NCBI GenBank assembly: GCA_016192135.1
Contig: JACPUR010000019.1
Coordinates: 62,001-126,000, forward strand
Source of the DNA: Candidatus Tectomicrobia bacterium
GTDB lineage: Bacteria > UBA8248
Direction of reading: 5' to 3'
Length of the DNA stretch: 64,000 bases
Shown here: positions 62,314-63,956 of the stretch, one piece after another
How positions within the stretch are numbered: position 1 is the stretch's first letter
Layout of the letters: every line of letters begins with the position of its first letter
Position numbers and translations under genes: made by a program
Notes under the pieces: generated by a model
Databases searched by the model: none
Told to the model about the DNA's origin: nothing
The model's input: only the letters and a program-made list of their open reading frames with translations

Positions 62314-63336
62314 ATGACCCAGCCCCCCGACGAATTCGAGTTCTTCTTCGAGAAGCCCTGGTCGGACGGCCTGCCCGTCGTCATCCCCACGGAAGATCGC
62401 ATCGCGCGCATGCTCTCTGGCACCCGGCGCGGCCCGGAGGAGTCCCTCGGCCCCGTCCCGCCCCTCATGGAGGAGGCGACGGTGCGCTCCGTCGCGGTCC
62501 ACGCCGTCATGGCGGGCTGCAAGCCCGAGTACCTGCCGGTGGTGCTGGCCGGGCTCGAGGCGATGCTGGAGGATTCCTTCAACCTGAACGGCATCCAGGG
62601 GACGCTCAACAGCGTGGCGCCGCTCCTGATCGTGAACGGCCCCTACACCCGGAAGATCGGCCTGCACGGGGGGAGCGGCTGCTTCGGCCCGGGCTTTAGG
62701 GCCAACGCCACCATCGGCCGCGCCATCCGGCTCATGCTGCTGAACCTGGGCGGGGGCATCCCGATGGTGGCCTCCATGAGCACCTTCGGCCAGCCCTCGC
62801 GCTACACCTACTGCATCGCCGAGAACGAGGCCGAGAGCCCCTGGGAGCCCCTCTCCGTCACCAAGGGCTCGCCCCCCGGGGCGGACGCCGTCACCGTCGT
62901 GGCCTGCGAGAACCCCCAGCTCGTGGTGGACGACGGGAGCCGCGGCCCCGAGTCCCTCTGCGCGGCCATCGCGGACGCCATGGCGCACCTCGGCTCCTGG
63001 AACCTGTGGACGCGGACCGACCTCGTGGTGGCGCTGAGCCCCCAGCAGGCGGCCATCTGCGCCCGGGCGGGCTGGAGCAAGGCGGATGTCCACAGGAGGC
63101 TGATGGAGCGCGCGGGGCGGCCACTGGGGGATTTGAAGAAGTCCGGCCACTACCGGCCGGAGCGGATGGTGGGCCTTCCGATCGACCTGGACGACGACGG
63201 CGCCTTCGTCCCCGCCCTGCGCGACCCCTCCGACCTCCACGTGATCGTCGCGGGCGGCGTCCCCGGCCCCCACAGCGCCCTCATGCACGGCTGGAGCGGC
63301 GGGAGCCGGTCGGTGCATAGGAGGTATGAGCCCTAG
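62314..63336 (+). CDS. unknown protein, triplet family member 3
   Basis: 340 residues from ATG 62314 (MTQPPDEFEFFFEKPWSDG); the longer open frame to 61975 runs through repeat DNA and is rejected. It keeps MAGCKPEYLPV, GLHGGSGCFGPGFRANATIG, TYCIAENEAESPW and the AIC-x-R-AG block. It is closer to member 1 in the middle and C-terminal parts (VPGPHSALMHGW). Its TAG shares the CTAG at 63333-63336 with the stop of the convergent MGMT gene. Confidence 0.82.
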   Translation: MTQPPDEFEFFFEKPWSDGLPVVIPTEDRIARMLSGTRRGPEESLGPVPPLMEEATVRSVAVHAVMAGCKPEYLPVVLAGLEAMLEDSFNLNGIQGTLNSVAPLLIVNGPYTRKIGLHGGSGCFGPGFRANATIGRAIRLMLLNLGGGIPMVASMSTFGQPSRYTYCIAENEAESPWEPLSVTKGSPPGADAVTVVACENPQLVVDDGSRGPESLCAAIADAMAHLGSWNLWTRTDLVVALSPQQAAICARAGWSKADVHRRLMERAGRPLGDLKKSGHYRPERMVGLPIDLDDDGAFVPALRDPSDLHVIVAGGVPGPHSALMHGWSGGSRSVHRRYEP

Positions 63337-63842
63337 CGCCGCCCCTCACTTTCTTCCAACTCCAGCAGCGCGGCCTTGAGCCCCGTGAGCCTCTTCCCTC
63401 TCGCGAATCCCCCGAGCCCGCCCGAGCCCGCGACGACGCGGTGTCAGGGCACGACGAGGGGCACGGGGTTGCGGCCCATGGCCTGGCCCACGGCGCGGGC
63501 GGCGCCGGGCCTGCCGATCTTCTGGGCGATCCAGCCGTAGGAGCGCGTCCCGCCGTAGGGGATGCGGGCGGCCTCGCGCAGCACGGCCCGGACGAAGGGG
63601 GTGCAGGCCGAGAGGTCGGCCCGCACGGTGAAGGCGCGGCGCCTGCCGGCCAGGTACTCGGCGATCTCCCGCCGGGCCTTCTTCGCCAGGGGGGAGCCGT
63701 CCTCCCCGCCCTCCGCCTCGTCCTCGCGGAGCATCCCGATCCCGCAGACGCCCCGCGCCGAGGCGCGCACGGTGAACTCGTCCTTCACGCGGGCGAGCCA
63801 GGGGGTGTCATCGGCCGTGAATAATTCCGGATGAGGATTCAT
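63333..63842 (-). CDS. ogt: selenocysteine-containing O6-alkylguanine-DNA alkyltransferase (MGMT)
   Basis: One frame of 170 codons with an in-frame TGA at 63446-63444. Read as selenocysteine it yields a 169-residue MGMT: VLREAARIPYGGTRSYGWIAQKIG, ARAVGQAMGRNPVPLVVP, then U133-H-R-V-V-A-G-S-G-G-L-G-G-F-A-R-G. The family motif is PCHRV, where Cys is the one-use methyl acceptor; here it is P-U-H-R-V. After the TGA the match goes on unbroken to a TAG at 63335-63333. A SECIS-like hairpin lies at 63413-63430. ATG 63842 has GGGAAGA upstream. The HTH and N-terminal domain are normal. A stop-truncated protein would lack the active site completely. Confidence 0.9.
63413..63430 (-). promoter_or_regulatory. 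bacterial SECIS-like hairpin of the MGMT selenoprotein
   Basis: Counting from the U of UGA, bases 17-23 (CGGGCUC) pair with 28-34 (GGGCUCG) to give seven pairs, two of them G-U. The apical loop is GGGC at 24-27, exactly 20 nt after the UGA. Bases 15-14 with 36-37 extend the stem beyond one mismatch. The loop begins with G, so the bSECIS rules are met. Confidence 0.65.
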
Positions 63843-63872
63843 CGATCTTCCCGTTCTAAGGATCTGCTCGCG

Positions 63873-63956
63873 CTGTCATTCTGAGCGAAGCGAAGAATCT
63901 CGGTGTGGCCTTGAACCGAGATTCTTCACTCCGCTTCGCTCCGTTCAGAATGACGT
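63873..63956. repeat. family C inverted repeat (tcattctgagcgaagcgaag)
   Basis: The left arm gtcattctgagcgaagcga agaatctcgg and the right arm ccgagattcttcac..gaatgac are near-perfect complements around gtgtggccttgaa. It forms one 84-bp hairpin in the MGMT leader region. Only one copy is in the window. Confidence 0.75.

Follow-up and report, generated by a model that had tools for sequence, protein, structure and literature searches.

Introduction

With few exceptions, selenoproteins are redox catalysts that use their selenium again and again. A suicide enzyme that loses one selenocysteine (Sec) for every base it repairs would be an extreme use of this amino acid. The alkyltransferase-like (ATL) proteins lack both the acceptor Cys and transfer activity. 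Sec-containing MGMT is already known as a predicted selenoprotein, listed since 2008, and it is a thinly documented kind. The Global Ocean Sampling (GOS) study of that year tabulates one Sec-containing MGMT-family sequence (PMC2398784), which agrees with the initial annotation of the locus described here, where Sec-MGMT candidates were believed to be listed in marine metagenome surveys. Reviews of 2022 and 2026 list a Sec-MGMT under the accession ABB14497.1 (PMC9312934, PMC13188914). On the experimental side, an engineered human MGMT carrying Sec at its acceptor position (C145U) is active and protects E. coli from MNNG, and this Sec145 enzyme works even without Asn137, unlike the Cys enzyme (PMC4150793). 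In the open-access literature searched, we found no paper reporting a measurement on a natural Sec-MGMT.

Here we present a gene from a Candidatus Tectomicrobia bacterium, located in a stretch of 64,000 nucleotides that we call the window, which we read, with a probability of about 0.9, as coding for a suicide O6-alkylguanine-DNA alkyltransferase with predicted Sec in place of the acceptor Cys. What is new is the retention of the Sec codon across a phylum, a co-varying SECIS hairpin, and switches between Sec and Cys.

Results

The gene and its acceptor site

The window protein matches Pfam PF01035 with 99.8 bits (cut-off 27), in an alignment that runs unbroken across the in-frame TGA, and TIGR00589 with 91.5 bits (cut-off 46.4). 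The TGA falls on the position of the acceptor Cys in the solved MGMTs 4wxc, 4bhb and human 1eh6, and beyond it the frame continues for 36 residues to its stop. The initial annotation had placed the TGA exactly at the acceptor codon, between intact flanking motifs and in a frame running on to a normal stop at the coordinates of Table 1, and each of these points is borne out. The partners of the acceptor site are all present (Tyr102, Arg116, Asn125, P132-U133-H134-R135 and Glu163), and none of the 19 Sec genes collected in this work departs from the R, N, P, H and R residues, while the Tyr and Glu positions were taken from reading the sequences. The closest solved structures are Mycobacterium tuberculosis Ogt, the C-terminal domain of E. 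coli Ada, and human AGT. An AlphaFold2 model, built from 27 sequences with C substituted for U at the acceptor, has a pLDDT of 83.8 and finds its best PDB match in M. tuberculosis Ogt (TM 0.71); as modelled, the protein has the MGMT fold with an N-terminal domain, the N-terminal part being less certain.

A second MGMT domain lies elsewhere in the host genome and has an ordinary Cys, so that the host is predicted to encode both Cys and Sec MGMT acceptors. The nested inverted repeats upstream of the window gene occur as a single copy within the window and are possibly a mobile or REP-like element.

Table 1. Coordinates of the Sec-MGMT gene, its predicted recoding signals and associated features
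Feature	Position	Strand	Details
Sec-containing O6-alkylguanine-DNA alkyltransferase (MGMT/Ogt)	63333..63842	(-)	169 aa; ATG 63842-63840, TAG stop 63335-63333; predicted Sec protein
In-frame TGA, predicted Sec133, alkyl acceptor in P-U-H-R	63444..63446	(-)	predicted; TGA at the same codon in 15/18 phylum genomes
Bacterial SECIS element, predicted	63413..63430	(-)	arms 63430-63424 and 63419-63413, loop 63423-63420; fits the published bSECIS model
Nested inverted repeats	63875-63954		GTCATTCTGAGCGAAGCGAAG... and complement; 33-112 bases upstream of the MGMT ATG
Second MGMT domain of the host (L009)	G000:C17:173836-174075		ordinary Cys; inside a 372-aa open frame
Weak cysteine-dioxygenase-like gene of relatives	L021:2026-2598, L026:850-1425, L030:2052-2624, L031:2045-2620, L033:784-1359, L039:1931-2509		

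Retention of the TGA among relatives

We searched all of 18 genomes of the phylum, which belong to one family and include the host (G000), and 15 of them, the host among these, carry an MGMT orthologue with TGA at the acceptor codon. Of the other three, G003 has an orthologue (L029) in which the codon reads TGC and whose identity to the window protein is about 50%; in G004 there is just a remoter MGMT homologue with Cys; and no MGMT orthologue was found in G001, a genome that is 67% complete. Because the orthologues share merely ~50-58% identity with the window protein (36% for L039), the TGA codon must be old, and the protein sequence past it stays conserved among them. Outside the phylum, no TGA-containing MGMT appeared among the matches listed (386 genomes, mostly of other families). 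A scan of named genomes placed such genes in at least four MAGs that carry the label Deltaproteobacteria or Desulfobacteraceae (L062, L096, L098 and L100), a distribution that is partly mapped, and found a close Cys relative, L068, in strain NaphS2. In total, 19 TGA genes could be set against 72 Cys homologues at the acceptor codon.

The SECIS hairpin

Counting the U of the UGA as base 1, bases 17-23 of the window transcript would pair with bases 28-34, so that the hairpin begins 16 nt past that U. Its 7-bp stem (CGGGCUC / GGGCUCG) closes on an apical loop GGGC, with a gap of 20 nt between UGA and loop. The folding energy of this hairpin is not unusual against shuffled sequences (z = -0.62), and the case for the SECIS is for that reason built on comparison rather than on a single sequence. 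Across the 15 TGA genes of the phylum, all 105 of 105 stem pair cells hold standard pairs, among them stem variants such as CCAGCUC-GGGC-GAGCUGG and CAAGUUC-UGGA-GAACUUG. When codons were swapped for synonyms drawn from local usage, the simulated pairing averaged 66.0 (sd 5.3, maximum 81), and none of 2000 trials reached 105. Two of the stem pairs change on both sides, one of them occurring as GC, CG and AU and the other as CG and UA, and shifting one arm by 1-3 columns lowers the pairing to 27-56%. The four deltaproteobacterial Sec genes have a 7-bp stem too, which starts from the same base and closes on loops of 5-8 nt. Of the 72 Cys homologues, not one forms all seven pairs when the offset is fixed (maximum 5); a 7-bp stem does occur in nine of them if the offset or the loop size is allowed to differ. 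In L029, the only Cys orthologue of the phylum, the stem is broken, with 4/7 pairs. The Rfam SECIS models gave no match within 63300-63900, which is a weak test since bacterial SECIS elements vary.

These comparisons bear on whether the TGA is simply a stop or a sequencing error, in which case the gene would code for a dead, shortened MGMT whose likeness to the family past the TGA is residual. Such a reading could draw on the TGC of the G003 relative, on the draft state of the assembly, and on the second, intact MGMT domain protein that the host owns. We consider it very improbable, given that the TGA is shared by 15 phylum genomes and four deltaproteobacterial MAGs, that the residues past it are conserved, that the co-varying hairpin is confined to TGA genes, and that the host has selenoprotein machinery; at the comparative level, a sequencing error or pseudogene is refuted by the 15 genomes of the phylum together with the co-variation of the hairpin. 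The initial annotation had named TGC or TGT in other strains, pointing to an assembly error, as grounds against the Sec reading; the other genomes keep TGA, with G003 the single Cys orthologue, and the reading stands. It had also proposed a test for Sec/Cys pairs in the family, which do occur: since the G003 orthologue has both TGC and a lost SECIS stem, it forms with the window gene a natural pair of this kind.

Selenocysteine machinery of the host

The Sec reading also withstands the second check named in the initial annotation, a lack of Sec machinery in the genome: most of this machinery is present. The host genome encodes tRNA-Sec (74.8 bits, anticodon TCA), SelB (389 bits) and SelA (540 bits). 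SelD was not found in the host assembly, a draft of 41 contigs, where only ThiL-like and other weak matches turned up; the candidate was rejected as a ThiL-like protein, judged from its translation. As SelD, itself with an in-frame TGA, is present in 14/18 phylum genomes, the two congeneric ones among them, its absence is likely a gap in the 41-contig draft assembly.

TGA is the true stop of the host SelA, SelB and second MGMT, which rules out a general reassignment of TGA. The same fact counts against a further possibility, that a near-cognate or suppressor tRNA reads this UGA as another residue, for instance Cys or Trp, yielding either a Cys enzyme or a Trp protein of the ATL type. Read-through of UGA with residues other than Sec is known in general, and ATL proteins do have Trp at the MGMT acceptor position. 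But tRNA-Sec is present, the hairpin matches the SECIS model and is missing from genes that encode Cys, and the catalytic neighbours and the full C-terminus are retained, leaving this possibility the slightest of chances. Selenocysteine is the strongly supported decoding of TGA133, as judged from the genomes compared here.

Ten of the 24 AhpC-TSA/thioredoxin-fold matches in the host contain an in-frame TGA (e.g. L160, L162-L166, L168 and L173), and two of the ten contain two. In the eight of these genes that were read, the TGA lies at active-site Cys positions, in motifs such as UPVU, UPPF, UPYU, UIFC, UINC and UPYC. With in-frame TGAs at the active sites of its thioredoxin-fold genes, the host is, by prediction, unusually rich in selenoproteins.

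Evolution of the acceptor residue

In an MGMT tree of 91 rows and 133 columns, the phylum genes form one set (support 98/98; 15 Sec and one Cys) and the deltaproteobacterial genes another (support 100/95; four Sec and one Cys). The well-supported branches require at least three changes between the Sec and Cys states, which speaks against a single origin of all Sec-MGMTs. The two Sec clades could represent separate gains or a transfer, and the 133 columns fit either. Within the deltaproteobacterial set, NaphS2 (Cys) nests with L062 (Sec) with support 100/99. A tRNA-Sec over the cut-off is present in 4/4 of the deltaproteobacterial Sec-MGMT genomes, and none over the cut-off was found in the NaphS2 genome, which fits a switch from Sec to Cys where the Sec system would have been lost. 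The placement of L029 within the phylum clade is less firmly supported.

Gene neighbourhood in relatives

At five loci in two genera (L020, L030, L031, L032 and L033, of G014, G007, G012, G010 and G008), the open frame of the Sec-MGMT reaches further upstream and takes in a conserved segment. This segment gives weak ribbon-helix-helix matches (TacA1/NikA-like) that fall short of the cut-offs, and the frame has a possible internal MGMT start. Segment and enzyme could possibly form an Ada-like fusion of regulator and repair protein; the window gene is without such an upstream segment. In four genera a protein of ~191 residues, whose match to cysteine dioxygenase is weak (E 0.003) and does not reach the cut-off, is encoded directly downstream of Sec-MGMT, and in two genera an acyl-CoA dehydrogenase lies upstream. 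Neither of these two neighbours was seen beside the window MGMT gene.

Discussion

In the mechanism that we propose, SelB with Sec-tRNA(Sec) would recognise the hairpin lying 16-33 nt past the U of the UGA, so that Sec is put in at residue 133. The protein would then flip an alkylated guanine out of the DNA, and the Sec133 selenolate, presumably ionised at neutral pH, would attack the O6-alkyl carbon directly (in-line). The alkyl group would stay on the protein irreversibly as alkyl-selenocysteine, leaving the guanine repaired. The family and the engineered human Sec enzyme are our grounds for inferring this chemistry and its irreversibility. In a selenoprotein-rich host, the putative benefit is likely a faster transfer or a lesser need for activation of the nucleophile. 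Higher nucleophilicity of the selenolate would be expected on chemical grounds, and the closest experiment is the active, Asn137-independent human Sec145 MGMT (PMC4150793). Natural Sec-MGMTs keep the Asn (N125 in the window protein) that the human Sec form can lose, which suggests that this residue has a further role in binding or positioning.

It could be argued that Sec is inserted and that its main role is nevertheless not that of a DNA alkyl acceptor, the protein being instead a multi-turnover enzyme, a sensor of alkylation or redox state, or an enzyme for some other alkylated substrate. Selenium is costly for a protein used once, most selenoproteins are redox catalysts, the ribbon-helix-helix-like N-terminal segment of five relatives recalls the sensor-regulator Ada (through a weak match), and a weak cysteine-dioxygenase-like gene often adjoins Sec-MGMT. 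Every residue of the MGMT acceptor site is kept, however, no resolving Cys stands beside the Sec, the modelled fold matches Ogt, and human Sec-MGMT repairs DNA, so we hold such a role to be unlikely. Another proposal, and quite an improbable one, is that alkyl-Sec is dealkylated by cellular thiols or oxidation, which would allow turnover, or that the Sec form senses alkylation and, in the relatives with a fused ribbon-helix-helix-like segment, would control transcription as well. Our preferred reading remains the suicide alkyltransferase, with Sec133 as the predicted acceptor.

The data show Sec-MGMT to be more than the accident of one read: the Sec form is kept across a phylum, is present in a second, separate lineage, and has given way to Cys on at least one occasion, in a genome in which tRNA-Sec was not found. 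The natural Sec/Cys pairs L062/L068 and window/L029 offer a direct route to what selenium gives to alkyl transfer, whether in rate, pH range, substrate range or turnover.

Among known systems, the ATL proteins (3gva, 2kif) have the DNA-binding domain in common with the window protein; their acceptor Cys is replaced by Trp or Ala, whereas the window gene has TGA, SECIS and a full-length C-terminus, and so falls outside the ATLs. M. tuberculosis Ogt (4wxc, 4bhb) and other Cys-containing MGMT/Ogt/AGT proteins agree with it in fold, in the DNA-binding domain and at every neighbour of the acceptor site, and differ in the acceptor itself, which is Cys in those proteins and in the window a predicted Sec encoded by TGA, with a SECIS inside the coding sequence. 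Human C145U MGMT has Sec at the acceptor, as predicted for the window protein, but it is artificial and made by amber (UAG) suppression (PMC4150793), whereas the window holds a natural UGA/SECIS gene; the window protein also keeps its Asn (N125), while the human Sec form can dispense with the equivalent Asn137. The Sec-MGMTs listed before, the GOS sequence and ABB14497.1, belong with the window gene to the common family PF01035, with Sec recorded. ABB14497.1 is a Carboxydothermus accession, likened to the window gene through its listing. Where the GOS list holds a single Sec sequence, this work describes 19 Sec genes that fall into two clades, a SECIS that co-varies, switches between Sec and Cys, and retention throughout the phylum.
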